Shown piece after piece: positions 936-21,766 of a DNA stretch of 21,766 nt. The translations under genes and the position numbers were made by a program. The stretch lies in the IMG/VR virus record IMGVR_UViG_3300017963_000805, positions 1 to 21,766 of that record; one strand, given 5' to 3'. Below the pieces are notes generated by a model. The model was not told the origin of the DNA, made no database searches, and saw nothing but the letters and a program-made list of their open reading frames with translations. Every line of letters starts with the position of its first letter. Position 1 is the first letter of the stretch. Source of the stretch: a virus.

Positions 936-1535
936 TTACGCGCTATCGCGCCAGCTCTCCCCCGGATAGCGCCGAATCCCGGCCATGCCTATTCCTGCGT
1001 CGTCAAGCAATACAAAATCGGGCGCCTCTCTCCCCAAGCTTTCTGCCATTCTATTGACGGCATCAAAGACTGGGGGACACGCCGCTGGCGAATAGTCGTG
1101 GAAGAGAATCGTGCCGTTGGGTAAAAGAGAATTAAACCAGACAAGATCACGCACAACCCGCTTGTGGTCCCCGTCCACAAACACCAGGTCTACCGCCCCG
1201 ACCTCGGCGGGGTCCACGTCCCAAGACGCCATGTGCCACACAGACACCCCTTTATGAGGGGCCAAGTAGAGAAGCGCCTCTTGATACTCATGCACAGACG
1301 GGTTGCATGTTACAATCCGCGCATCCGGGTTGGCCGTAGCCATAATGGCCGCCGAGCAGCCTACAAACGTTCCTATCTCAAAGATACTTTGCGCGTCCTT
1401 GGCGTGATAGCACAAGGCTAACCGTTGCCAAGGCAGCATTTGGCTCGGAATATGGCTCGTCAGGTCAAGCACCTCTGGTCCCTCGGGGCATAGATCGGCC
1501 AGATACTGAAACAGCTCTTCGGGAGTTTGGGTCAC
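936..1535 (-). CDS. Class I SAM-dependent methyltransferase (Methyltransf_24-like)
   Basis: 199 residues, GTG start overlapping the upstream stop (GTGA). The Rossmann motif I is clear (IFEIGTFVGCS, about 51-61), followed by an acidic/polar strand end (RIVTCNP) and motif IV-like VDLVFVDGDHKRVVRDL, then LLPNGTILFHDY. The DGDH...HD pattern is typical of the family that includes TylF/MycF-like sugar O-methyltransferases and cephalosporin hydroxylase-type proteins, where these acidic residues bind a metal. As the last gene of the sugar-transferase cluster, methylation of a glycan is the simplest guess, but the substrate cannot be read from the sequence. Family call is strong; substrate is inference. 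Confidence 0.8.
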   Translation of the reverse strand: MTQTPEELFQYLADLCPEGPEVLDLTSHIPSQMLPWQRLALCYHAKDAQSIFEIGTFVGCSAAIMATANPDARIVTCNPSVHEYQEALLYLAPHKGVSVWHMASWDVDPAEVGAVDLVFVDGDHKRVVRDLVWFNSLLPNGTILFHDYSPAACPPVFDAVNRMAESLGREAPDFVLLDDAGIGMAGIRRYPGESWRDSA

Positions 1536-2710
1536 TTTCGCACCGCCAATGCAACCAGAATAGAGTTGCCTGCCTTGTCAAGACGGGCCTCGTCCTTGAT
1601 GCGCCACTTGTAGGGGGTCAGGAAATCGTTTTCCCTGCCAAGTTTAGTGTCCGGGTCAAAGTTGTCGAACGTCCGCAAGTCCCAGCACCAGTAGTGTGTC
1701 GGGTCGCGGTGAGCAATTGGGCTGTCCCAGTAGGGCGCTCGAATGGCCACATGCCCACCGGGCGCTATGATGCGCCACAGCTCATTCATCGTGACCACAA
1801 GGTCTTGGGGGATGTGCTCTAGCACTGACCGAGCCGATACGAAATCGAAGGAGTTATCCTCCCACGGCCAAGGCATCTCTTTTAGGTCCCAGGCAATGTC
1901 AATAGCCGGGTGATGCTTGAAACGGTCGTGGTTGACAGCGCCCTCTATAATGCGATGCCCCGTCCCAAGGTTCAGCACGCGACGCCTTCTTACCGACATA
2001 GGGTTCTCCTCACGCAAATACTCGGCATAGGGCGAGTCAGCAAACGCTCGCCGCAACTCCTCCCAGTTAACAATCACTTGAGACAGAGGGGCCGGATTGA
2101 CTCTGCGCACCCGACAGGTCAGGGGGCGATAGGGCACATCCAAGAACCGGCAAAGCATACGCGCCGCACCCTCTTGAACGGCAGACACATCTTGCCCGCC
2201 CGTTATATCATCATAGGTCAGCTCAAAGGTGGGAAGGCCGTGTGGAGGCGCGAGTCTTGTGCGCTCCTCAAGAATGTTCGTAATAGCGAGGCGTACATCT
2301 GGTGGGTGCACCGTTATACGGGGTACATGGTCCGACCGCTCATACCTCTGTGTGGGATAGTCCGCTCCGGCGCTTTGGGCCTGCTTGCGCAACTGTATAC
2401 TCACTACCGTTTGGAGGGGATTCCGTGTCAGATGGATAATCCGCCCCCCCTTGAGCCCCAGATAGTGCCACATCTCGGGCGTCGCCTGGCTATAGGTCAC
2501 CTTGCATCCTGTCGCCACATAACCCGGCTGCTCCCAGTACAACCCCATGAGGTCGCCCTCTACCCGCCTCATGGTGTGCTCTTCTGCCCGGAAAGGCTCG
2601 TGCCGGGGCATAAAAATGTCCGGGTGAGAGTCTAGGCAGTGGGCCAAAAACGTCCCGCCCGTGCGGATGTACGAGTACAGGACAAAAGGCCTTGGGCTAC
2701 TGAGCACCAT
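1532..2710 (-). CDS. Sulfotransferase-methyltransferase fusion
   Basis: 392 residues. The N-terminal part (about 1-235) is a PAPS-dependent sulfotransferase: SYIRTGGTFLAHCLDSHP (13-30) is the 5'-phosphosulfate loop at the N-terminus, and RIIHLTRNPLQTVVSIQ (90-106) is the 3'-phosphate-binding region with R96. The C-terminal part (about 243-392) is a Methyltransf_11-type SAM methyltransferase: RVLNLGTG (244-251), DLKEMPWPWEDNSFDFV (275-291), LEHIP and LWRIIAPGG. ATG follows GGGGGTAC and overlaps the upstream small membrane gene by 14 bases. An internal ATG at 1999 with its own GAGGAG site could yield the methyltransferase alone. Each domain is confident; joint action on one glycan is inference. 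Confidence 0.82.
   Translation of the reverse strand: MVLSSPRPFVLYSYIRTGGTFLAHCLDSHPDIFMPRHEPFRAEEHTMRRVEGDLMGLYWEQPGYVATGCKVTYSQATPEMWHYLGLKGGRIIHLTRNPLQTVVSIQLRKQAQSAGADYPTQRYERSDHVPRITVHPPDVRLAITNILEERTRLAPPHGLPTFELTYDDITGGQDVSAVQEGAARMLCRFLDVPYRPLTCRVRRVNPAPLSQVIVNWEELRRAFADSPYAEYLREENPMSVRRRRVLNLGTGHRIIEGAVNHDRFKHHPAIDIAWDLKEMPWPWEDNSFDFVSARSVLEHIPQDLVVTMNELWRIIAPGGHVAIRAPYWDSPIAHRDPTHYWCWDLRTFDNFDPDTKLGRENDFLTPYKWRIKDEARLDKAGNSILVALAVRK
1999..2011 (-). promoter_or_regulatory. Internal ribosome binding site at the methyltransferase domain
   Basis: The minus strand reads GAGGAG, six bases (AACCCT), then an in-frame ATG at residue 238 of the fusion, just before the methyltransferase domain (MSVRRRRVLNLGTG). 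The spacing is as good as at genuine starts in this window, so a separate methyltransferase of about 155 residues may be made from the same gene. Confidence 0.5.
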
Positions 2711-2843
2711 GTACCCCCATAGCTATCACGTTCAGCACCGCCAGAAGAACAAGCAAAGAGACGCCCAACCAGGGAGGGACCACGCCAAAAAGCATTATGG
2801 CTAGCACACCCCAGAATAATATGGCCACTACCTTGCCTAGCAT
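2697..2843 (-). CDS. Small hydrophobic membrane protein, 48 residues
   Basis: An uninterrupted 48-codon gene between the zinc-ribbon protein and the sulfotransferase. Its ATG overlaps the upstream TAA (TAATG) and its 3' end overlaps the next start by 14 bases, so it is fully integrated in the operon. The protein starts MLGKVVAILFWGVLAIM and is almost entirely apolar. A PPW near residues 23-25 likely breaks it into two short membrane helices (about 5-22 and 26-43). It has few charges and a short GVHGAQ tail. I do not recognise a family. A membrane anchor or partner for the neighbouring sugar-transfer enzymes is possible, and a holin-like role cannot be excluded. Confidence 0.6.
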   Translation of the reverse strand: MLGKVVAILFWGVLAIMLFGVVPPWLGVSLLVLLAVLNVIAMGVHGAQ

Positions 2844-3145
2844 TACTTGGTCTCTAGCTCTTTCCCGACAGCATTGGATATAGAGCGCGACAAATCATCC
2901 AAGGTACAGGAAATCTCACTGGCAATCTCCGCCGCATTTGTGACGGTTATGTTTACACCGCCCTCTTCATACGGCCTGAAACAGGCCGCACACACACTCA
3001 AGCCCGGAGCCACCGAATTGCCACATCTCGGACACAGCCACCCCCACGGTTCCTTGTTCCGTGGGTGCCTGATGCACGTCTCTTTGTGGTAATACGTCCC
3101 GCTTGTGTCAGGCACAACCCCACAAAACTTACACGGCATATCCAC
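2843..3145 (-). CDS. Double zinc-ribbon protein, unknown role
   Basis: About 100 residues, with two Cys-rich units. The first is CKFCG...H.ETC..H, a C2-H-C-H pattern. The second is CPRCGNSVAPGLSVCAAC, a CxxC-10-CxxC zinc ribbon. The C-terminal third (NAAEIASEISCTLDDLSRSISNAVG) is predicted to be an amphipathic helix. The start is uncertain: GTG at 3145 is six bases after GGAGG, and ATG at 3139 is a possible alternative; either overlaps the upstream glycosyltransferase stop. No enzymatic motif is visible. It is co-transcribed with glycan genes, so a binding or assembly role is possible, but function is unknown. Confidence 0.65.
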   Translation of the reverse strand: MDMPCKFCGVVPDTSGTYYHKETCIRHPRNKEPWGWLCPRCGNSVAPGLSVCAACFRPYEEGGVNITVTNAAEIASEISCTLDDLSRSISNAVGKELETK

Positions 3146-3992
3146 CAAAGACCTCCTCAAACAGACCCCCTATACGTCTGCACCACTTGGGCACATCCAT
3201 GCTCGACACTGTATCACGCAACACCGCAGGGTCATAACGGTCGTCCAGCACACGCATAAGCGCCCGCGTCATATCGTCCACATCGCCCTTGCGATAGTGC
3301 CGAACCCCCGCCGTCTCGGGCAGCTCGTCCATCATACCCACGCCCCATGGAATAACCACAGGCACCCCACAAGCAAGGGCTTCCAGGGGGCCAAGAGGCC
3401 CGCCCTCCACAAGGGAGGGACATACATAGGCCGACAGGCGATGGTAGAATGAGGGCATTTCCGCCCACGAACACGGCGTCATTGTCACTGGCCAGCCACG
3501 CCCAGAGGCTACAAAGTTGAGCCCCTTGACCTCCGGGCGCTTGACCAGCTCCCCTATAAGGGCCTCCCCCTTGCGACCGTCCGGCACTACGTACCCGCCC
3601 ATGCCGATGATGCCGTATATGGGCAGCCTTTTTCGGAGGGAGAAACGGCGTAGCTCTACGGGTGACCCAACAGCGGCGCTTCTGCCGAGGGGAGTTAGCA
3701 GTTGCTCGTATAACCGACATTGGGTCACCCGTAGAGCCACGCCGTGGGCCGCCCTGTCCCACAGCGTGGCTTTAGGGGGGGAAGGATCATAGTGCGTGAA
3801 CCACGCAGCCGTGTTGCCAGAAATGTTGGCATATCGGCTCCATCCGTCTGCATAGTTCACCAGAAAGTTGACGTCGGCCTCAAGGTTGGGGTGGTCGTCA
3901 TAAGTCCAGCCCAAATGCTTGTTCATGTACCGTGCCCAGCGCGGCAACACTCGGTCTGCGTGGGGACGCATAACCACTACATGAACCCTCAC
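3129..3992 (-). CDS. GT4-like glycosyltransferase
   Basis: 287 residues. GTG start overlaps the previous stop (GTGA) and has GGAGGCGAAT before it. It is a GT-B fold retaining glycosyltransferase: an N-terminal Rossmann half (MRVHVVVM...), a nucleotide-sugar half with SGRGWPV, and the EX7E motif in SLVEGGPLGPLEALACGVPVV, where the two glutamates are the usual donor-site residues. It is clearly related to the N-terminal half of the next gene upstream (shared MRVHVV start, AWFTH/TWFTH, GRKGEAL, EGGP...EALA.GVPVV), so the two arose by tandem duplication. A 26-bp inverted repeat lies within it at 3645-3745. Donor and acceptor are unknown. Confidence 0.85.
   Translation of the reverse strand: MRVHVVVMRPHADRVLPRWARYMNKHLGWTYDDHPNLEADVNFLVNYADGWSRYANISGNTAAWFTHYDPSPPKATLWDRAAHGVALRVTQCRLYEQLLTPLGRSAAVGSPVELRRFSLRKRLPIYGIIGMGGYVVPDGRKGEALIGELVKRPEVKGLNFVASGRGWPVTMTPCSWAEMPSFYHRLSAYVCPSLVEGGPLGPLEALACGVPVVIPWGVGMMDELPETAGVRHYRKGDVDDMTRALMRVLDDRYDPAVLRDTVSSMDVPKWCRRIGGLFEEVFGGYAV
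3645..3745. repeat. 26-bp inverted repeat inside a glycosyltransferase gene
   Basis: Arms at 3645-3670 and 3720-3745 are complementary at 25 of 26 positions, with a 49-base loop. Both arms are coding: on the minus strand one specifies GVALRVTQ and the other VGSPVELRR. The paralogue has GVSMRLSQ and VPAPVDLEH at the same places but I saw no comparable complementarity in its DNA, so the repeat is specific to this gene copy. Confidence 0.85.
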
Positions 3993-5620
3993 ATTCGCCT
4001 CCGCTTCTCCCAGCGTGACACGGCACGCCAAGCCGTAACCTCATCCAGGCGCCCATCTACCACCCCCTCCCACCGACGCGCTTGGGTTTGGTGGTGTAGT
4101 ATTCCCGCCGAACGCTGAGCCGGAAGGTACCGTGTAGATAGATTCCACTCGTTACCTAGCAGCAACATACGAACGGGGTTTGCGTACATCGCCCGAAGCA
4201 GTGCTCCTTGATCTCGCTTGCCCCACCGTTGCCACTCTCTGTGCCATGCCTCGAAAAATCGCTTGGTGCGCTCGTTGCGCCGGAAGGCAATCACCCCGCC
4301 CTGTAGTTGCACCACCTCCGGCGTCCCTATCTCCGACCATGTGACCCTGCACTCGTCTAGGTTGTCAGGGCGCTTCATCTCCCGTGCAACATGATACTTG
4401 CCGGGATTGACACAAATGAGTAGGTCCCAGCCGTCTTGAAGGGCGTCAAAAAAGAAGGGAATAGGAGCGATGGTCTCCGTGTCGGCGTCAAGGTAAAGGA
4501 TATACTCCCACTCCGCAGGAGCAAGGTCGTATATCCGCGTCTTGGCCGACCGACCGCCTATGTCGTTCTTGCCAGGCCCATCCTCGTGCTCAATAAAAAT
4601 GTCCTCCGCACCAACCGGGTGGTCAGACACCACAGCAACCGGGACGTCGGGCATGTGCTCCTTGAAGGATTGCACAGCCTTGACGGCACATCGGCGCGAC
4701 GGTGCCCCAAAGGCCACGATATAGCATCCTGCCCGCTCCCGCCAGTCGGAAGGAGTGGGCTCAACCTCAGCCTTGGGCGCATCGAGCACCTCGGCTATAG
4801 CCTCGCTCCACTCTCTACGCCAGCGGTCCGGAGAATACTCCTCAGCCACCTCGCGCAGCGCGCGCCGGTTGACCCGTGTGTCTAGAGCCTCTGCGATTGC
4901 TCGCTCCATCCCAAGAATGTCTCCGGCGGGATAGCGGTAGATGCCCGCCATCTCGGGCAGGGCGTCTATCATGCCAACATGCCGAGGCACGACAACCGGC
5001 ACCCCCGTCGCGAGCGCCTCAAGCACGGTAACTGGTCCGCCCTCTATGCTCGATGTGCACAAAAACACATCCAGAAGGCGGTAAAAGTCGGGCATGGTCG
5101 CCCACGTGTGCCTCTCCATGGGGATGGGCCAGCCGCGCCCGGTCGCCTTGACCGTCCACTCAGGCCGTCTCTGGGCAAGCTCCGCCGCGAGGGCCTCTCC
5201 CTTGCGACCAGACTCATAAACAAAGCCAGCAACACCAATGACGGGTGTTTTGTGCCTCGGGGCGCGGGCAAGAGCAAAATGCTCCAGGTCGACGGGCGCG
5301 GGCACCCACTTGTTTGGGCGGGGCAGAGAATCAAGGTACATCGGCGACTGAGAAAGCCGCATCGACACCCCCTTGGCCGCCTCATCCCACATCTTCACCT
5401 TGCCAGCCGTCATGTCTTCGCGGTGGGTAAACCAGGTAACGGTTGGCGTGTCCTTAAAGCTTGTGCGGCACCACAACAAATATAGCGCAAAGAGGTTTAC
5501 GTCAGCGCTTGCGTCCGGCCCCTCGCCCGACGTCCAACCTGTCCCATCAACCAGCTCTCGGGCGAGTCGCGCAATCACCCAATCCGATGACCAGTCATTC
5601 GACACAACATGAACTCTCAC
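3989..5620 (-). CDS. Bifunctional glycosyltransferase: GT4 domain plus GT-A (GT8-like) domain
   Basis: 543 residues, GTG start six bases after GAGGAG. Residues 1 to about 280 are a GT-B/GT4 enzyme (TWFTH 62-66, SGRKGEAL 137-144, ATGRGWP 159-165, SSIEGGPVTVLEALATG 190-206 with E193 and E201 as the EX7E pair). Residues about 295-540 are a GT-A enzyme with a DXD metal site in YILYLDADTET (373-383), a GGVIAFRRN stretch and a late WN.....P region, as in GT8-like and nucleotide-diphospho-sugar transferases. The C-terminal half resembles the free-standing GT at 6538-7143 (LYLDADT, QGG.M.FR, FEAW..EW, DQGA..RA). The fusion suggests two successive sugar additions on one acceptor (inference). Confidence 0.85.
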   Translation of the reverse strand: MRVHVVSNDWSSDWVIARLARELVDGTGWTSGEGPDASADVNLFALYLLWCRTSFKDTPTVTWFTHREDMTAGKVKMWDEAAKGVSMRLSQSPMYLDSLPRPNKWVPAPVDLEHFALARAPRHKTPVIGVAGFVYESGRKGEALAAELAQRRPEWTVKATGRGWPIPMERHTWATMPDFYRLLDVFLCTSSIEGGPVTVLEALATGVPVVVPRHVGMIDALPEMAGIYRYPAGDILGMERAIAEALDTRVNRRALREVAEEYSPDRWRREWSEAIAEVLDAPKAEVEPTPSDWRERAGCYIVAFGAPSRRCAVKAVQSFKEHMPDVPVAVVSDHPVGAEDIFIEHEDGPGKNDIGGRSAKTRIYDLAPAEWEYILYLDADTETIAPIPFFFDALQDGWDLLICVNPGKYHVAREMKRPDNLDECRVTWSEIGTPEVVQLQGGVIAFRRNERTKRFFEAWHREWQRWGKRDQGALLRAMYANPVRMLLLGNEWNLSTRYLPAQRSAGILHHQTQARRWEGVVDGRLDEVTAWRAVSRWEKRRRM

Positions 5621-5623
5621 CCG

Positions 5624-6541
5624 TCACTCCTCAAAATATGACCTGAATCGTGCCAGCCATGCCTCGGGGCTGATATGCGCCTTGGCCCACCTGTACCCCA
5701 CCCAACCCATCGCCACAAGCGCCCCCGCACCCATCGACCGAAGGTCGCACAGGGTGGCACGGAGTTTTTCTGCATTGTGCACGCTTATAACAGGAGGATA
5801 GTCCCATGGGGTAGTTTCCGTAACCTCTTTGTCATACATGTGTGACAGAACCACCGCGCCTCGGGCGAGCCCCTCCTCACCGTTCATGCCGAGCCCGTGC
5901 GTCCATCCCTTGGCCGGTATCTGATCTATCACGATATGTGCCGAGTCCTTAAAGGCCAGCGACTGCGCATGGGACAGGCCCACAATCTCACGATACAGCA
6001 CTCCCGGCACGTCCTTTATGACGTGCCGAATCATCGCCGAGCCCTTCTGCACCCTCTTTTTTTCTGTGCCGGGCGCGTGGACGACAGTAATTACGTCGGT
6101 GCTCTTGCGGGGCGGGACGTCGGGGACCACAACCGGCTGAAGAATGGGAATTGCCCCCGCTGGAGCCTTGGGGGCTAGATTGGGCAGCACAAAAACCCGC
6201 CCTATTCCCATATCCTCCATCAGCTCGTTGGTCTGACGAGAATAGCGCCAGTACGCCTGGTCCATCAGGAACGCGGAAGCACCTCGCCACGCCCGCAGAT
6301 CGCTCTCCAACTTGGCCAAGAGGTGAAGGCCCGAAACACCTATCGCAATAACCTCATCTGCGCATGCGACGAGCTCGCGCGCGCGAGCCATATTCTCAGG
6401 GGTGAGCACGAGACCGGGGTCCCATTCGCGCCACCCATCCGGTTGGGCACAGAGAAGATGCGTCTCGTCCCACTCTTGCATAACAGGCACCATGTTATAG
6501 GCGGCACCCATGGAGGGGTTATCTGCAACGAGCACAATCAT
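5624..6541 (-). CDS. GT-B type glycosyltransferase
   Basis: 305 residues. The ATG overlaps the previous stop (ATGA) and is preceded by GGGAGGGCGCGACA; longer upstream reading has no ribosome binding site. The N-terminal half begins MIVLVADNP and contains ADEVIAIG. The C-terminal half carries the pattern seen in polysaccharide glycosyltransferases: VVHAPGTEKKRVQKGS (153-168), IVGLSHAQSL, AHIVIDQIPAKGWTHGLGMNGEEGLARGAVV (201-231). In this motif the D206-Q207 and the GLGMNGEEGLA segment line the donor site. The family call is good; sugar donor and acceptor cannot be told. It belongs to the same translationally coupled run as its neighbours. Confidence 0.75.
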   Translation of the reverse strand: MIVLVADNPSMGAAYNMVPVMQEWDETHLLCAQPDGWREWDPGLVLTPENMARARELVACADEVIAIGVSGLHLLAKLESDLRAWRGASAFLMDQAYWRYSRQTNELMEDMGIGRVFVLPNLAPKAPAGAIPILQPVVVPDVPPRKSTDVITVVHAPGTEKKRVQKGSAMIRHVIKDVPGVLYREIVGLSHAQSLAFKDSAHIVIDQIPAKGWTHGLGMNGEEGLARGAVVLSHMYDKEVTETTPWDYPPVISVHNAEKLRATLCDLRSMGAGALVAMGWVGYRWAKAHISPEAWLARFRSYFEE

Positions 6542-7143
6542 TGTCGCGCCCTCCCAAAGAGATGGGCGATAGCAGTCCCACCATTCCAGGGCGACCCCAC
6601 GGCCCACATTTTTACAGGACAGAACATAAGCGCTCGCATAAACGCGCCTTGATCTTGGTCCTCAAACTGCGCCCACTCACCCCGCCACGCCTCAAACAAC
6701 CGATGCACAGCCTCCGTCTTGCGGAAGCACATCATCCCCCCTTGATACTGCGGAATACATGGCCCCACCACCCTCGCGGTTATTTGGCGCTCTGCATCCG
6801 ATACGTGCCACAGCCAATCCTTGCCATGCTGGTTGCTTGATAGAGCCATAGCCATATCCCATCCCGCCTCGACCCACTCAAAAAGAGGCGCCACACTCTC
6901 ACGCACTCGCGTGTCTGCGTCTAGGTAGAGTGTAGGGTCAAACGGAGATAGCTTGTCCAGCGAAATCTTCGTCCATCGCCCGCCCTTGTCGTGCTGGGGC
7001 ACCCGTTTGCTCCGAACGTCCGCCATGGGTTCGCCTATCACGCAGACTTGTAGGTCAGGGTTATTATGGCGCAGACCCTCGATTGAGTACCGCGCCTGTT
7101 GATAGGCGTTTCGCCCATACACGACATAGCATACCCCCCTCAC
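6538..7143 (-). CDS. GT-A glycosyltransferase (GT8-like)
   Basis: 201 residues. I chose the GTG at 7143, which overlaps the upstream stop as GTGA. Upstream ATG codons (7167, 7188) have no ribosome binding site, and the first beta strand (GVCYVVYGRNAYQQARYSI) begins just after the GTG. The DXD metal and nucleotide-sugar site is in PTLYLDADTRV (70-80), followed by GWDMAMAL, a QYQGGMMCFRK segment and LFEAWRGEW. These match the C-terminal half of the 543-residue fusion at 3989-5620 and show duplication in the cluster. Role: addition of a sugar to an unknown acceptor. Confidence 0.75.
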   Translation of the reverse strand: MRGVCYVVYGRNAYQQARYSIEGLRHNNPDLQVCVIGEPMADVRSKRVPQHDKGGRWTKISLDKLSPFDPTLYLDADTRVRESVAPLFEWVEAGWDMAMALSSNQHGKDWLWHVSDAERQITARVVGPCIPQYQGGMMCFRKTEAVHRLFEAWRGEWAQFEDQDQGAFMRALMFCPVKMWAVGSPWNGGTAIAHLFGRARQ

Positions 7144-7757
7144 TGGGGCACATCTCGTCCGAGCCATGTGATAGGCAGGTAACAACACAAGGGCTTAGAC
7201 CGCCACAGGGCGCGCGCGAGGGCATGATAGGGGTCTCCTTTCTCCGCGCTCCAGGCAGCCACAAAGGCCCGCCCCCTTGGAGAGTCCTTTACGAACACAG
7301 CGCCAGGCTCGAAGGCCAAAACGCGTAGGTCACCCAGAAGGCGACGTGAGGCAATGCGCTCCTCTGCCTCACCTATGTCACAGAGAAGCTCGTCATAATC
7401 ATGTATGGGGACAGCCATGTCCCATTGGTCAAGAAGGTTGAACCCCACAGGGATAAGCGCGCGGACAAGGGGAATGTCAGGGACCAGAAACAGGGTGCGG
7501 GGGTAGACGAGGCGTTTTTCCGTAAGAACGGTTACCTCCCAGCCGGGAGGCAGTGAGGCGGATTCCATGGGTGCGACAATACCACACCCCCTTTCGAGTT
7601 CTTCCTTCTGTGTGCCAAGGGCCTCCGCCTTGCCCTCTGCAATCCATCGGGCGGCTTCCATCTTGGTGGCTTGTATCCAGTCGCCGGGTTGGTACCTTTT
7701 GAGTAGTCCCCGCTCCTCTTTGTGCACAACCCCAAGCAGCCGCACCCAAATGGGCAT
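7140..7757 (-). CDS. Glycosyltransferase-like protein with N-terminal 'PGDW' domain
   Basis: 205 residues, first gene of the cargo cluster. ATG follows GGAGGGGAGAT. Residues 20-46 (KRYQPGDWIQ...EAARWIAEGKA) form a small domain of a kind I have seen in front of phage-encoded sugar transferases. The remainder has the outline of the neighbouring GT-A enzymes (LFLVPDIPLVRALI in place of the LYLDAD strand, QWDMAVPIHDYDE like GWDMAM, and DSPRGRAFVAAWSAEKG like TEAVHRLFEAWRGEW) but lacks a DXD. It may be an inactive or diverged glycosyltransferase acting as a partner. Only weakly recognisable, so the functional label is tentative. Confidence 0.45.
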   Translation of the reverse strand: MPIWVRLLGVVHKEERGLLKRYQPGDWIQATKMEAARWIAEGKAEALGTQKEELERGCGIVAPMESASLPPGWEVTVLTEKRLVYPRTLFLVPDIPLVRALIPVGFNLLDQWDMAVPIHDYDELLCDIGEAEERIASRRLLGDLRVLAFEPGAVFVKDSPRGRAFVAAWSAEKGDPYHALARALWRSKPLCCYLPITWLGRDVPQ

Positions 7758-8263: not shown

Positions 8264-9544
8264 CTACGTGGTCTTGTCGCCAAGGATGACGAACGGCGAC
8301 ACCTGGCTCGTGCCATCAGAGAGAGTGAAGGGAGCACTCATCCAAGGCTTGCCATCCACACGATGCACGACACGCCAACTCGTCTTGTCCTGAGACCACG
8401 CATCGTACTGCGTAGACTCGATGGTCGTCGCCTGACGATCGCCAATGACGTAGTAAGAAAAGTCGGCGAGAACGACGTCGCCAGCAGTGCCGAGGGTCGG
8501 CACCTTCTCCGAAAAGACGACCGGCATACCGAGCAATGTGTTCGGTCGCCCGGTACTCATATCGCCCCAGATTAGGTTGCCAGCGGTGTCCTCTTCCTCA
8601 AGCAGACGCGCCATACACGACTGGCTGATGATCCATACGCCCATTCGGTTGGGCATGAAGTTCATCAGCATGTCGGTCAGGTCGCCGTACTGCACATCCA
8701 TGGTCGCCGTGCGGTTGACGGTGATGGTCGCACCCGCGTTGATGATGCCAAGCGGCTGGCCCGCGCCGGTACCTCGGAGAAACGCATAGTCCTCGGTCCA
8801 GGCCACGCCTCCCGCATACTCCATCGGTCCACGGAAAAAGTCCTCAAGGCTGATGGCACTATCGCTTACAAGCTCGTCGGATGCCTGCGTGTAGCCAATC
8901 AGCTTGTGCGCGACAAGGCTCAGGTCACGGAAAGAGGCATCAGAGGCGGTCTTGGATGCGGCCTCTTCGGTCCAGTAGAAGACAAGCCCACCGTGCCAGT
9001 GGGTGCGGCCTGCGGTTGTCCCCGTCTGGTCCAGAACGGGCATCGTTACCTGACGACGCGCCATACGGATGATCTGGGCGCGCGGTCGGACAATGGCCAT
9101 CTCACCAATCGCCGACTGAAGGTCGGTACGGTGCTCGGGCGGCACAAGGAAACCTCCGCTCGCGCCCACAGACTCGACCATGACCTTTGTGTCAACGATA
9201 ACGTCCTTGACCTCATCGTACCAGCGCAACGCGCCATGGAAAGGCTCCTTCGCAAAACGCGGGTTCATGCCCTTCCAGGCAGCATGCAGAAAGCCGCCAA
9301 ACGTCTCGAAGTTGTCCTTTACGTTTGGCGTCTGCGCTAGTGGGGCCTGCGGCACATTCGCAATAGCCGCTGCGGCCGCCTCGATCTCGTCCATCTGCAA
9401 AAGCCGAGCCTTCAGCTCCTCCGCCCGCTCGCGCATGCGCGGAACCTTCTCAATATCCTCGGCAGTCGGCTCATCCGACTGAAGAATGGCACGGCACTGC
9501 TCATAGAGACCCTTGGCCTCTGCGATCATAGCTTTCCTATCCAT
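8264..9544 (-). CDS. Major capsid protein, HK97 fold
   Basis: 426 residues; ATG follows GGAGGTTCCCA and the gene overlaps the protease stop by 8 bases. Residues 1 to about 75 are a charged, predicted coiled-coil delta domain (MIAEAKGLYEQC..., RMRERAEELKARLLQMDEIEAA) that acts as internal scaffold and is normally removed by the prohead protease. The mature domain begins after the linker. GASGGFLVPPEH (127-138) is the hallmark N-arm region. TQASDELVSDSAISLEDFF, FLRGTGAGQPLGIINAG, and the late FSEKVPTLGTAGDVVLADFSYYVIGDRQ are characteristic of PF05065-type capsids. It forms the icosahedral head. Length and order with the protease fit well. Confidence 0.95.
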   Translation of the reverse strand: MDRKAMIAEAKGLYEQCRAILQSDEPTAEDIEKVPRMRERAEELKARLLQMDEIEAAAAAIANVPQAPLAQTPNVKDNFETFGGFLHAAWKGMNPRFAKEPFHGALRWYDEVKDVIVDTKVMVESVGASGGFLVPPEHRTDLQSAIGEMAIVRPRAQIIRMARRQVTMPVLDQTGTTAGRTHWHGGLVFYWTEEAASKTASDASFRDLSLVAHKLIGYTQASDELVSDSAISLEDFFRGPMEYAGGVAWTEDYAFLRGTGAGQPLGIINAGATITVNRTATMDVQYGDLTDMLMNFMPNRMGVWIISQSCMARLLEEEDTAGNLIWGDMSTGRPNTLLGMPVVFSEKVPTLGTAGDVVLADFSYYVIGDRQATTIESTQYDAWSQDKTSWRVVHRVDGKPWMSAPFTLSDGTSQVSPFVILGDKTT

Positions 9545-10895
9545 TGGGAACCTCCAATTCTCCCAGAGATAGCATTCCGTTCTCTATGGCGGCCAGCAGC
9601 TCCTTGCGGTCGCTTTCGGGATACGTGGGTGGGGCGTTCTTCCCCGGCCCGGCGTCCTCTGCGGCCTCCTCCTCGGACTCCGTGTCCGAGGATAGAGGTG
9701 CAGTTGCCTCGTAAAGCTCCTCCAGCGCGGCTAGTGCCTCTCGTACCTCGCGAGTCACACGACCAATCAGGGACCGATTGATCTGAGAAAGAACACGGCC
9801 CGCCTTTGTCTGTACATAGACCTCAGACAGAGGCGCGGGGGTGCCCTTGCCCCAGAGTTGAGCCATCATGATCTCTGCCAGAGCCTTGGGGTCGGCCCCA
9901 CGACTCTTGACCCAATCACCGGCCTGCTCGGGCGTGTACGCTTCGCGGTCAAACACAAAACACTGCACCATGGACGCGTTATCCTTGCGGCCCACCACAG
10001 CGTTGATGCCCTGGGCCAGCTCCACGGTGCGAAAACCATCAGCATCGAGCGTGTCAGGGTCCGCCACCACAACGCGAATGGTATCCTCGTCCAGCACAAG
10101 CGACATAGGCTGTTGCTTGTCGCCCTCTTCCTCTTCTTGGCCCGGCGGCTCGCGTTCGAGCTCCTCTCTGTATATCCGGGTCAGTTCGCGAATAGCCCCT
10201 TCCTTGTCCGGCCCCTCATAGACGTTGCCACGGGAGCCTTCATGCAAAGCCGCCCACGCAGCGCCACAAAGCCGGGGCTCCGGATTGCCGTCTGCGTCTC
10301 TGACTGGAAGATGCCACGTGCTCGGGGTGTCCTCGTCCTCAACCACCAGAAAACTAGAGGCGGGGAGGTCTTGGCCTGCCGCTCGCTTGGTCGGCTCGCC
10401 CTCAGCCTTGTCCTCTTCCGGCTCGTCTTCTTTCACAGCAGTAACGCGGGCCTCCTCGTTGGCGGGGAAGGTAACCACACTGACCTCGTGCAGACGAACC
10501 TCGCGCAAGTGGCGAACGTCCTTTTCGCCCTCATGGCTGTAGTCGTAAACGAGGGGCTCGTATCCAATAGAGAGCCCCTCAATCGCCCCGTCCTTCAGGA
10601 GGGCCAGCACATCCTTGCCGCGTCGCGTCTCACTGACAACTCCGGCAATCTCCAGCCCCTCGGGCGTCTCGCGCATCGCCTTGATCTTGCCCAGGGGCTC
10701 ACGCGGGTCGTGTTGCCAAAGAAAGCGGACCCTATCACCACGCTCTACCAGAGTCTTGGTGAAGGCGCCCTTGTGGATAATATCATCCACGCGATCTAGG
10801 TTACCGAACGCTGCCGCAAGACCCTCGAAGGTTCGCCCCTCCTCGTCCAATGCCTTGACGATAAAGGGAATTGCCTTTGTTTCGCGGTCACCCAT
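9537..10895 (-). CDS. Prohead protease with C-terminal scaffold-like region
   Basis: 452 residues. I placed the start at the ATG at 10895, seven bases after GGGAGG; a longer GTG reading would run through a hairpin. The N-terminal domain is an HK97-type U35 serine protease: FEGLAAAFGNLDRVDDIIHKGAF (23-45), FLWQHD with catalytic H62, GAIEGLSIGY with S109, then VRLHEVSVVTFPANEEA. After about residue 165 there is an acidic linker, a STWHLPVRDADG...GAAWAALHEG domain, a VQCFVFDREAYTPEQAGDWVKSRG segment and a GRVLSQINR helix, all familiar tails in phage proteases. The region is presumably an assembly scaffold. It matures the capsid by cutting the delta domain. Confidence 0.9.
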   Translation of the reverse strand: MGDRETKAIPFIVKALDEEGRTFEGLAAAFGNLDRVDDIIHKGAFTKTLVERGDRVRFLWQHDPREPLGKIKAMRETPEGLEIAGVVSETRRGKDVLALLKDGAIEGLSIGYEPLVYDYSHEGEKDVRHLREVRLHEVSVVTFPANEEARVTAVKEDEPEEDKAEGEPTKRAAGQDLPASSFLVVEDEDTPSTWHLPVRDADGNPEPRLCGAAWAALHEGSRGNVYEGPDKEGAIRELTRIYREELEREPPGQEEEEGDKQQPMSLVLDEDTIRVVVADPDTLDADGFRTVELAQGINAVVGRKDNASMVQCFVFDREAYTPEQAGDWVKSRGADPKALAEIMMAQLWGKGTPAPLSEVYVQTKAGRVLSQINRSLIGRVTREVREALAALEELYEATAPLSSDTESEEEAAEDAGPGKNAPPTYPESDRKELLAAIENGMLSLGELEVPNG

Positions 10896-10918
10896 GCTTG
10901 CCTCCCACACAGCAAAAC

Positions 10919-10958
10919 ACCCCTCCAGGTGCCTCGCGGGCACTAGAAGGGGCGTCTC
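10919..10958 (-). terminator. Terminator-like hairpin upstream of the protease gene
   Basis: On the minus strand CCCCT and GTGCC pair with GGCAC and AGGGG around a CGCGA loop, with a small internal loop, and TGTTTTGC follows directly. This is a plausible intrinsic terminator or attenuator between the accessory genes and the capsid operon. A second small stem (GCGTC/GACGC) lies just upstream at about 10951-10968. Nothing else is evident in the 139-base gap 10896-11034. Confidence 0.5.
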
Positions 10959-17474: not shown

Positions 17475-17778
17475 GGAGCGAGATAACGAGGCCGTATTGC
17501 CCGTGAGCAAAGGGTCCGCCACAGTATACACTTTCGCTCATCGAGGGCCAGAGTGGGGATACTCGCTAGAGGTTCTTGTAAAATTGGATAACCCCTACAC
17601 CAGGACATACTTAACCATAACCCGAACGTGGCGCGGCTTTACGGAGCTCCCAGACCTTGTAGAGTGGACGGGGCACGCGAGCAACCCTTGGGAGGCAGCC
17701 AAGTATGCCGTTGCACACTGGACAGGTGTACTGGTCAAGGAAGAGGAGCCTACTCTAGAGAAAGCCGCCGATAGCTGA
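17455..17778 (+). CDS. Hypothetical protein, last gene of plus-strand island
   Basis: 107 residues from a GTG that lies inside the end of the previous gene, behind GAGAGG. The protein has beta strands (ATVYTFAHRG, YSLEVLVKLDN, TYLTITRTWRGF) and a helix with Trp (NPWEAAKYAVAHWTGVLV). The last 29 bases overlap the 3' end of the MuF gene on the opposite strand, with no terminator between the converging genes. Function unknown. Confidence 0.58.
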   Translation: MAIRTRRERDNEAVLPVSKGSATVYTFAHRGPEWGYSLEVLVKLDNPYTRTYLTITRTWRGFTELPDLVEWTGHASNPWEAAKYAVAHWTGVLVKEEEPTLEKAADS

Positions 17779-19384
17779 CGTCGTATCCAATTTTGCGCAT
17801 GGCTCGCGTGGCCATACTCCACACCTTGTGCCAGTGGTTGGCATTGGCCTCGGAAAAGGTCATTTCGCCAGACAAGATAGCCTTGATGTCTTGGCGCTTG
17901 ACCAGGCCACGCGAGCCCACGATGATCTCGGCTATATTCCGATTGTCCTCTGCCGATAGACCCCGGTCTTGCATGTTGTTCGTGAACGAGTAGCGCCATT
18001 TCTGGCCAGCGGCATCTTGGCCGGATACCCGCATTTCCTTGACACGATAGTGCAGGGCCATGGTCACATCACTCGTGCTGAGCCCGCGCCCCGATGGGTG
18101 ATTGTGCAGAATGTATCCCCCGGCAAGGCCTCGCAACTCCTCGGGGGTGAGCCGTACCTGCGTTGCCTCGCCCGCACGCTCCGTGACAACCCGCCCGTCA
18201 GAGCCCATAGCACACATGCGCTCATAGTCCAGGGGCATATACATCTGCTCGCGACGGCCAAAGACGGCATCCTTGTTGACGCGCCCCTCCGTGCTGTTCG
18301 GTGGGCCTGCAGCCTTGCTTCCCTCAGTAATGCGCTCGCGCTCCGTGATACCATAGGGGAGCATCACACACCGGCACTGTATGACCATTTCGAGGGGGGC
18401 ACCACGAGAGTCGTCGCCTGGGAATCCGACCTCGGCACCCCCCACCTTGAAGGGGGCGTCCATGGGGATGGGGCCTGGCACACCCCCCTCCGAATATTCG
18501 TACATCGCCTGGGCGTGTTCCGGGCGCTCCCGCCCGTCGATTGAGGCCAGCCACGTCTTGCGCTGCACGCCCCACTCACGCATCAGATGATACGAGCCTG
18601 CATGACTGGCCCTCATAGTCTGGTCACGCGCTATGAGCTCGCGCCGATACTCCGGCATGCGCTCCTCGTACCAGGTGAAATCCTCACGCGTCTTGTCGCC
18701 ATCCATCCACTGCTCGAATAAGGTTGTCAGGCGGTCCTGCATCATCTTGACAGACCACCCCTCGACAATGGCGTGCTTTTGCATCAGGGCGAGGCCATCG
18801 TGTGTGGTCTGGTTGATCGGCTGGGCAAAGGTCGTTGTATAATCGTTGAACCACTCGGCCGCATCTAGGTTCGCCACGTTGAACCGTGCCCCGAGGGTTG
18901 ACTGGAGCACATCCGCTTGCCCGCGAATGACGGCCCGAATACCGGGGAGAAACTCCTCGCGCCAGTTATCCCCCGCCTTCTCCAGCAAATACTTACGATA
19001 GAGCTCGCCAAAAGTCTGCCAGTCGAGTGAGGCCTTGAGGTGGAGTGATTTCTCACGCACCTCAGACAGCATAGCCAGGATGGCCCGCATATCCTTGTAG
19101 AGAGCCCGCCTGGTCGCGTCGCCCAACTCCTCCTCGTGGGAATCAGCAACGTTCAATACTTGCGCGCGATACTCCCAAGGGGTTGCCTTGCCCTCGTTTG
19201 GCTCCTCCTGCTCTACCCACAAGAGTTGGGTCAGCCCCTCCCATGTATCGTCCTCGAACCACTCGCGGAACTCACCCACAGACATGGGGTCCAGGTCAAC
19301 GATGGCACAATACCGGTCCACCGCCTCCTGAGTAAGAGCCGCCTTGGCTCGCGTAAGACTCGCCTCAAGAGAAGCCCTTACCAC
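17750..19384 (-). CDS. MuF/SPP1 gp7-type head morphogenesis protein with C-terminal HNHP domain
   Basis: 544 residues, GTG start after GGGAGG. Residues about 1-165 are helical. The MuF domain (about 170-345) is recognisable from RELIARDQTMRASHAG, MREWGVQRKTWLASIDGRERPEH, DAPFKVGG...GFPGD and the closing IQCRCVMLPY. MuF proteins bind the portal, sit in the head in few copies and can leave with the DNA. After a linker, residues about 375-540 carry a second domain with DGRVVTERAG, LTPEELRGLAGGYILHNHPSGRGLSTSD (412-439) and a C-terminal helical tail. HxHP with S436 and D439 resembles a JAB/MPN metal site, but the spacing is one residue short and the usual Glu is unclear. It may be a virion-carried enzyme. 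Confidence 0.8.
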   Translation of the reverse strand: MVRASLEASLTRAKAALTQEAVDRYCAIVDLDPMSVGEFREWFEDDTWEGLTQLLWVEQEEPNEGKATPWEYRAQVLNVADSHEEELGDATRRALYKDMRAILAMLSEVREKSLHLKASLDWQTFGELYRKYLLEKAGDNWREEFLPGIRAVIRGQADVLQSTLGARFNVANLDAAEWFNDYTTTFAQPINQTTHDGLALMQKHAIVEGWSVKMMQDRLTTLFEQWMDGDKTREDFTWYEERMPEYRRELIARDQTMRASHAGSYHLMREWGVQRKTWLASIDGRERPEHAQAMYEYSEGGVPGPIPMDAPFKVGGAEVGFPGDDSRGAPLEMVIQCRCVMLPYGITERERITEGSKAAGPPNSTEGRVNKDAVFGRREQMYMPLDYERMCAMGSDGRVVTERAGEATQVRLTPEELRGLAGGYILHNHPSGRGLSTSDVTMALHYRVKEMRVSGQDAAGQKWRYSFTNNMQDRGLSAEDNRNIAEIIVGSRGLVKRQDIKAILSGEMTFSEANANHWHKVWSMATRAMRKIGYDVSYRRLSLE

Positions 19385-20040: not shown

Positions 20041-20223
20041 CTACCTATCCACGTGCTTCTGTTGAGCCCACGAAACCAAACAATGGGTCGAGCAGAAAAA
20101 CAGCTTTTTGGGCACGTCCCACATGGCACCACGCTCGCCCTGCACGATAGCCTTCTCCCAGTAAACACTCACCCGCCGGTTGCGAATAAGTCCACCACAC
20201 GCCTCGCAATGTTCAGCCGTCAC
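20041..20223 (-). CDS. Small zinc-finger protein, 60 residues
   Basis: GTG start overlaps the preceding stop (GTGA), with GGGGAGGGGGA before it. The pattern CEACGG (C6, C9), about 35 residues, then FFCSTHCLVSWAQQKH matches a treble-clef, TRASH or MYM-like zinc finger (CxxC...FCSxxC). Such short fingers often bind metal or nucleic acid, or mediate protein contact. Exact partner unknown. It is translationally coupled to the two-module metallopeptidase gene, which suggests a functional link or simply compact packing. Confidence 0.6.
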   Translation of the reverse strand: MTAEHCEACGGLIRNRRVSVYWEKAIVQGERGAMWDVPKKLFFCSTHCLVSWAQQKHVDR

Positions 20224-21548
20224 TCCCCCTCCCCAAGCTCGGCCCGGCTGACCCGAGTGACTCCTCCAAGCACCTCAATAAACTCTGCGTGCCCCTCAGC
20301 GTTCTTGCGGAACATAACCACCGACCTTGGCATGCCGTCAACGGCCTTACCCAGAACCCCCACCTCGCCAACCAAATAGTCACCATATACGGAATGTCCA
20401 CTGCTCAACACGTCAGTAAAGCTGCGGCCAAAGTCACCGGCGATTTTTTCCGGTGTCCACCGTCCCCAGTCAGCCTCGTCCGAAAAGTGTTGGCCGTGAC
20501 GCGCAAAGATACGCTCCCCAATCAGCTTGGCGGCATTGTCCGTTTTAATAACCGCCGTCCCAAGCTCCCTAACGGACATACCCGTCAGGGGGGCAAGCTT
20601 GTCTCGCACATAGGACACCTCCTGCTGGTAGGTCTTGAAAGCGCGAGGACAAATCTCTTCTGTGAGGGCTTGGGTAAGACCTTCCACAAACGCGGGGGAC
20701 CCCTTGGTCAAGTCAATGCCCGCAGCATGCACAAGCTCGTGGGTTATTGTCCCTATAGGCAGCTCGTCACGAACAAGAAGCTCGCCGTCGCTCGTCAGCA
20801 CCCCGACAATATGTGCCCCGGAAGTCTTCTCTATACTCTGGAGGTGGTCGTCAATCTCCTCGCCAGAAACAACCCGCACCTCTTTCTCAGCAAACTCAGG
20901 CCCAAGAGCCTCTCCAATAATAGCCTTCTCGTAATCTACCAGAGCACCACCCTCATATAGGGGCACCCCCATCTCTTCAGACAACGCGGATGGAGGCAGA
21001 GGTTGGCTCGATAGGGCGGGAAGGCTCCCCCCTCTCCGCCCAGGTACTCCTCGATGCCCATAGTTGCCCGACCCAGGCCCACCCTTAAAGAACCTCTTCA
21101 GCCACGCCTTAATCTGCTGCCCCATCTTGTCGCGCCGGTTGTTGTACCACTTATCCAGCACCGTCTTGACGACCGGCCCCTCGCCCACGATGAACCCGTC
21201 AAGCTTGCCCCTGAACCGCAACTCCTTGTACCACTTCTCCTCGGGAAGGTCCTTCCCCTCCAGCCCTGTAAGCGCATCCTCTACAGACTTAAACTTGCGC
21301 CGTTCCTTCATGCGCTGGAAAGCATGGCGCGACAGGCGCACCTTGGCCGAGGGACTCCCCGTCCCTGGGGCACTACCCCCTCGGTTGCCCGGCACACCGA
21401 CATGGCCCCAGTTGCCCGACCCCGGCCCACCCTTCACCCATAGCCCGCGCGGGTTCAGCACAAAGGCCTCCGCCTTGCCCTTGTTGGTGGGCAGGACGAT
21501 GAGATCATAGCGCGGTGTGATGGTCCAGGTTAGGTCGGGATAGTACAT
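20220..21548 (-). CDS. Two-module protein: RNase-like domain plus HExxH metallopeptidase with twin GGPGSGN motifs
   Basis: 442 residues. ATG at 21548 overlaps the previous stop (TGATG); an upstream ATG lies inside the neighbouring gene. A 20-residue motif of form GGPGSGNxGHxGxPGxRGGS occurs at 40-59 and 156-175. After the first comes a small domain (about 70-137) with RHAFQRMKERRKF and GFIVGEGPVVKTVLDKW, reminiscent of DUF4258/RelE-like RNase toxins. After the second comes a metallopeptidase domain: THELVHAAG (269-277, zinc ligands H270 and H274, catalytic E271) with E289 in FVEGLTQALTE as a likely third ligand. A final region (about 365-442) is unassigned. It precedes MuF in the operon. Possible head-carried effector; the motifs may be linkers or cleavage sites (inference). 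Confidence 0.65.
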   Translation of the reverse strand: MYYPDLTWTITPRYDLIVLPTNKGKAEAFVLNPRGLWVKGGPGSGNWGHVGVPGNRGGSAPGTGSPSAKVRLSRHAFQRMKERRKFKSVEDALTGLEGKDLPEEKWYKELRFRGKLDGFIVGEGPVVKTVLDKWYNNRRDKMGQQIKAWLKRFFKGGPGSGNYGHRGVPGRRGGSLPALSSQPLPPSALSEEMGVPLYEGGALVDYEKAIIGEALGPEFAEKEVRVVSGEEIDDHLQSIEKTSGAHIVGVLTSDGELLVRDELPIGTITHELVHAAGIDLTKGSPAFVEGLTQALTEEICPRAFKTYQQEVSYVRDKLAPLTGMSVRELGTAVIKTDNAAKLIGERIFARHGQHFSDEADWGRWTPEKIAGDFGRSFTDVLSSGHSVYGDYLVGEVGVLGKAVDGMPRSVVMFRKNAEGHAEFIEVLGGVTRVSRAELGEGE

Positions 21549-21712
21549 CAGTCGCCCTCTTGCAAACGCTCGTGAAACTCCCTGTAGGCCGCAGTCGCCT
21601 CCTCTTGTTCCTCGGAACGATGGAGCCATTCCGCATTTTCGCGCGCGTCCTCTTCGTCCAGCATATCCACAAAATCAATCTCAACCAAGGCCTCTTCGTC
21701 TTTGTCTGTCAC
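21548..21712 (-). CDS. Small acidic protein, or C-terminus of a longer gene from beyond the edge
   Basis: 54 residues from a GTG five bases after GGGAGG. The protein is highly acidic and helical (TDKDEEALVEIDFVDMLDEEDAREN, EEQEEATAAYREFHERLQEGD). The same frame is open to the right window edge (18 more codons, ending ...LVVLDGREDN before the GTG), so it could instead be the C-terminal tail of a larger protein such as a portal, which would be expected here. A different frame ends in a TAG at the ribosome binding site, which favours a separate small gene. Its stop overlaps the next start. Confidence 0.5.
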   Translation of the reverse strand: MTDKDEEALVEIDFVDMLDEEDARENAEWLHRSEEQEEATAAYREFHERLQEGD

Positions 21713-21766
21713 GTTGTCCTCCCTACCATCCAGAACTACGAGGCGGGGGCTCTGTCCCGGTACCCC

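Follow-up and report, generated by a model that had tools for sequence, protein, structure and literature searches.

What is the role of a phage head gene that bears two copies of a single glycine-rich motif, each ahead of a different domain? The question is posed by a protein encoded in a 21.8-kb viral record (21,766 nucleotides, the whole of which is referred to here as the window), where the head genes lie on the minus strand. The original prediction described a modular format, in which one shared motif stands ahead of interchangeable effector domains with two of them here in tandem, and a survey of the motif supports this description. The protein is probably an effector or cargo polyprotein of the phage head, arranged as leader-K/motif-cargo 1-K/motif-cargo 2 (slashes marking predicted cuts), that would be cleaved by the head protease. 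The relevant features of the window are as follows.

20220 to 21548, minus strand: target gene, 442 residues, comprising leader, motif 1, cargo 1, motif 2 and cargo 2 (from the translation)
21432 to 21548, minus strand: leader, residues 1-39, last residue K39; predicted protease site K39/G40
21372 to 21431, minus strand: motif 1, residues 40-59, translated as GGPGSGNWGHVGVPGNRGGS
21084 to 21371, minus strand: cargo 1, residues 60-155, last residue K155; predicted protease site K155/G156
21024 to 21083, minus strand: motif 2, residues 156-175, translated as GGPGSGNYGHRGVPGRRGGS
20223 to 21023, minus strand: cargo 2, residues 176-442, with HELVH at residues 270-274 (20727-20741) and E289 (from the translation)
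21548 to 21766, minus strand: end of the portal gene, with the last motif residues (GVPGQ) and a tail, cut by the window edge
17750 to 19384, minus strand: MuF head protein with a C-terminal extension (from profile matches and alignment)
9537 to 10943, minus strand: S78 head-maturation protease (Peptidase_S78, E 1e-30; phrog_80, E 5e-58)
8264 to 9544, minus strand: major capsid protein (Phage_capsid, E 3e-49), predicted propeptide boundary K76/D77 (TPNVK/DNFETF)

Along the minus strand, the order is portal end, target, small ORFs, MuF, S78 protease and capsid protein. The start of the target is best placed at 21548, since the ATG at this position overlaps the portal stop. MuF is indeed nearby, as had been predicted, but small ORFs separate it from the target, and the gene lying directly upstream and overlapping the target start is the portal. 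The target itself has no MuF match in profile searches of Pfam, phrog and NCBIfam; MuF is a separate gene, matching Phage_Mu_F below the Pfam cut-off (E 7e-5) and the head morphogenesis family phrog_2468 (E 6e-26), and aligning with portal-MuF fusions of relatives. The C-terminus of this protein (17750-18310) holds HNHPSGRGLSTSD, which has a JAB/JAMM-like outline and no Pfam family match. At the other end of the head genes, the capsid gene is followed by successive ORFs that resemble glycosyltransferases and methyltransferases (936-7757), and the related contigs L187-L189 have ORFs of this kind in the same place.

Both predicted copies of the motif, with the pattern GGPGSGNxGHxGxPGxRGGS, are present in the translation, and as DNA they form a 62-nt direct repeat of 74% identity. 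A sister contig, L116, carries the target intact (3933-5261) together with the whole of the portal, which displays a third motif near its C-terminus. Every site in the window is preceded by Lys. The leader of the target resembles the portal tail ahead of the portal motif, with a local alignment score of 52 against a mean of 19.3 and a maximum of 45 in 5000 shuffles.

A degenerate DNA pattern of the motif, run on viral contigs, matched at least 119 stretches, and among the matches listed at least 200 ORFs bear at least 263 copies. The motif occurs far beyond chance and is widespread in phage head genes. After removal of duplicates, 213 post-motif segments among these matches fell into at least 117 clusters at BLAST E 1e-5, many of them toxin-like. 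The motif had been expected ahead of varied domains in phage head genes, which is what these clusters display; its confinement to one fixed structural family, the outcome named as contrary to the prediction, was not found, the segments being diverse. Pfam searches of 148 post-motif segments, again among the matches listed, returned ADP-ribosyltransferases (14), GNAT (4), Zeta toxin (3), ART-PolyVal (3) and Ntox50 (2), along with CdiA-C, topoisomerase IB, PI3/4-kinase and others. The carriers are likewise varied: among the matches listed, 67 long regions before the first motif include Phage_portal_3 (19), Phage_portal (7), MuF (6) and DUF2213 (4), and many motif genes bear short leaders that are alike within one phage. 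Cargo-like regions also stand ahead of some first motifs in this set, namely NUDIX (11), 2H/Acb1-type (anti-CBASS) and one intein match. An exact-pattern scan of bacterial genome records located the motif in Clostridia and Desulfosporosinus, where it is preceded by D, and in Terriglobus and Sulfuricaulis, where it is preceded by L or A. A motif query against phage records gave no match, the last 12 query residues being artificial and the remainder probably masked by the low-complexity filter, and this blank does not argue that the motif is missing there; one real motif protein gave no match in these records either. No earlier description of the motif, or of the release of portal- or MuF-fused effectors by a head protease, was found in the open-access literature.

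Each phage keeps to one residue directly ahead of the motif, and this residue varies between phages, with K, D, E and R-x-[L/A] as the main classes. Among the matches listed, 55 loci bear two or more copies of the motif, and in these 81% of within-locus pairs share the preceding residue, compared with 22% when shuffled (z 17.8). Position -3 ranks second among the upstream positions of the same loci (z 9.7), while -5 and -6 do not rise above background. The classes differ in what else they fix: R or K occupies -3 in 79% of the 80 sites of the L/A class, against 8% of K sites and 0% of E sites, and nearly all E sites among the matches listed are L/I-x-E in a first scan that left -3 free of selection; the -3 counts of a later E scan provide no evidence because its pattern fixed the middle base of that codon as T. 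Lys is a common residue, and the K class otherwise has nothing fixed near the site. In contig L081 (G043), Q, H and D all occur before the motif. Together with L030 (G024) it makes up a minor fifth class, in which the preceding residue is H or Q and in one case D, and which has a divergent DUF2213 and capsid protein.

Searches of whole contigs for the head-protease families revealed that the preceding residue follows the family of the protease. S77 was found only in E contigs (2) and S78, the family of the window protease, only in K contigs (3); a strong branch of DUF2213 was confined to D contigs (14 of 14), and a weak second branch occurred in L/A contigs in 10 of 12 cases, the other two being the H/Q contigs. 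No permutation of 100,000 gave an association as strong, a figure that overstates independence since the contigs are related within groups. In a replication set of new contigs, picked solely by the residue before the motif, S77 was present in three, all of the E class, and S78 in four, all of the K class and one below cut-off; DUF2213 was found in none of 40. The profile phrog_80 had seven matches among 45 contigs, every one in the K class. The head-protease search returned nothing in many motif contigs. A ClpP-type enzyme was considered as the missing head protease and rejected, having a single match, in a D contig; this contig, L006 (G004), has a ClpP-family match and returned none in the DUF2213 search. 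The head proteases of T4 and of giant phages are known to cleave after Glu (PMC5694885).

The capsid proteins of the motif phages, aligned as a separate check in which all cut positions are predicted, appear to carry the class residue of their phage at the predicted propeptide boundary. In the L/A class, all eight have R-x-[L/A] followed by S/A/G-P at one alignment column, and the two homologues from H/Q phages lack R-x-[L/A] at that column. Capsid proteins of the D class have D shortly ahead of the first conserved helix, a weaker match because the alignment is loose in this region. Those of the E class read YLTE/GLD; gp23 of T4 reads FLTE/AEIGG at residues 65/66, its known cut site. The capsid protein of the window reads TPNVK/DNFETF, with Lys near the same point in three of four others aligned, the exception being L188, an S78 relative that has no motif and no Lys at the aligned position. 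The capsid protein of HK97 is cut at K103/S104 (PMC10275583).

The original prediction had offered a linker or a cleavage motif, and its cleavage part survives in a sharper form, as a head-protease cut predicted directly before the motif. The 39-residue leader, with its relation to the portal tail, would bring the target into the procapsid, where the S78 protease would cut after K39 and K155, just ahead of each glycine-rich motif. Two effectors, each starting with the motif, would be released and ejected along with the DNA, and the portal would free one more piece in like manner. The motif would mark where a transferable cassette of cargo begins, with each phage providing a preceding residue suited to its own protease. 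We infer the packaging, cleavage and ejection of the target from the motifs, the diversity of cargo, the constant preceding residue, its match to protease and capsid protein, and a cargo block that lies between portal and MuF. Since capsid proteins are cut without the motif, cutting itself does not require it, and a guess at its job would be packing, unfolding or transit through the portal. A broader and distinctly more tentative proposal is that tailed phages in general use the motif as a tag for cargo: motif-led effector cassettes would circulate among phages with unrelated heads and be freed by the protease of each, and the exposed N-terminal motif would then perform a common job, helping the effector either to load within the packed DNA or to pass through portal and tail.

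The linker part of the prediction corresponds to a rival account, which we consider unlikely, wherein the motif is a mere flexible spacer in a protein that is never cut, and the constant residue ahead of it simply marks the lineage, having been copied with the linkers. The glycine-rich, low-complexity composition would suit a spacer, positions +15, +20 and +21 from the motif start are also alike within a phage (z 8-11), and codons are slightly similar within contigs. However, the preceding residue stands out well above these positions while -5 and -6 do not, it matches the protease family in separate contig sets as well as the capsid protein, and a plain spacer has no need of 20 nearly fixed residues.

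The identities of the two cargoes are weaker than the modular-cargo reading. Cargo 1 displays the outline HAFQRMKER...VVKTVL that had been noted, but its assignment as a DUF4258/RelE-like RNase was dropped, as there was no Pfam match up to E 10, no NCBIfam match and no meaningful PDB match. Cargo 2 has no named family in profile searches, and its AlphaFold model from a single sequence was unusable (pLDDT 37). Relatives of either cargo were absent from phage records and viral contigs, except for sister contig L116. The zinc metallopeptidase proposed for cargo 2 stands at the level of the motif: an HExxH is present with a candidate third ligand downstream, namely HELVH at residues 270-274 and the Glu of FVEG at residue 289, and cargo 2 may be a zincin-like peptidase. 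The near-identical L116, however, reads RELVH (H270R), which removes the first zinc ligand and should break the site; part of the population may carry an inactive form, or the difference may stem from an error in assembly. Among the matches listed, 14 of 207 post-motif segments contain HExxH, whereas shuffling gives a mean of 2.0 and at most 7.

If active, cargo 2 could be an embedded zincin that cuts the polyprotein itself, as self-processing by metallopeptidase domains has been proposed for polyvalent proteins (PMC5512222), and its HELVH with downstream Glu is the attraction of this idea. It is nonetheless very improbable: most motif proteins lack HExxH, so a zincin of this type cannot be the general processing enzyme, L116 retains both sites despite its RELVH, and the residue before the motif tracks the head protease instead.

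In three relatives of the portal (L187, L188 and L189; 45-50% identity), portal and MuF are one ORF with neither motif nor cargo, which places the cargo block at an interrupted portal-MuF junction. The window and L116 are 99.95% identical over 5705 nt, but their sequences part within the portal motif and stay different up to the portal stop: the portal end of the window has GGGGTACCGGGACAGAG in common with the portal motif of L116 and then diverges, the differing tails occupying 21551-21752 of the window and 3742-3930 of L116. The difference is possibly a natural swap of cargo in a region that lies at a contig end, and a switch inside the motif is what an exchange of cargo at the motif would be expected to produce. 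That the motif is kept solely as a DNA site for such homologous exchange, and not for its protein sequence, is scarcely credible: these contigs do switch inside it and codons are slightly alike within contigs (0.345 vs 0.275), but in comparisons of different contigs the Gly codons at equivalent motif positions coincide barely more often than at other positions (0.28 vs 0.26), which points to selection on the protein and led us to set the DNA site aside as sole explanation.

Should the reading of the target as a cleaved head polyprotein be true, one short pattern would flag candidate injected phage effectors at scale, including many without a known domain, and the exact mature N-termini of these effectors would follow from it. 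The cutting specificity of head proteases would become predictable, including that of the poorly characterized DUF2213 proteins, and which proteins phages inject from the head would become testable from sequence.

Among known systems, the target would work like the capsid-targeted cargo of T4, and the Glu rule of T4 is also that of the S77 motif phages. To our knowledge, the cargo of T4 lacks a glycine-rich motif. The internal proteins and Alt of T4, which have a capsid targeting sequence and are processed by gp21, would share with the target a short N-terminal leader, a head-protease cut after a defined residue (predicted for the target) and a diverse cargo injected with the DNA, as is proposed here (PMC3012670, PMC5694885). 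Unlike in T4, the motif recurs in phages whose proteases belong to S77, S78 or DUF2213, one chain can hold several cargoes, and the tails of portal, MuF and protease serve as carriers. The MuF polymorphic toxins are likewise toxin domains fused to head proteins encoded beside the portal, but they bear an N-terminal MuF domain that the target lacks, and the searched text of their description mentions no glycine motif, linker or cleavage (PMC5576092). The polyvalent proteins of phages and conjugative elements also unite several unrelated effector domains in a chain, with MuF and portal fusions and frequent zincins, but release by embedded peptidases has been proposed for them (PMC5512222), whereas here the head protease would act at a marked site. 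In phage P1, the N-terminal part of DarA is reportedly cut in the head by the prohead protease, as the target would be; it has no tandem cargo, and the searched text of that report mentions no glycine-rich motif (PMC12810830). What is new here is a residue before the motif that is constant within each phage and tracks its head-maturation protease.
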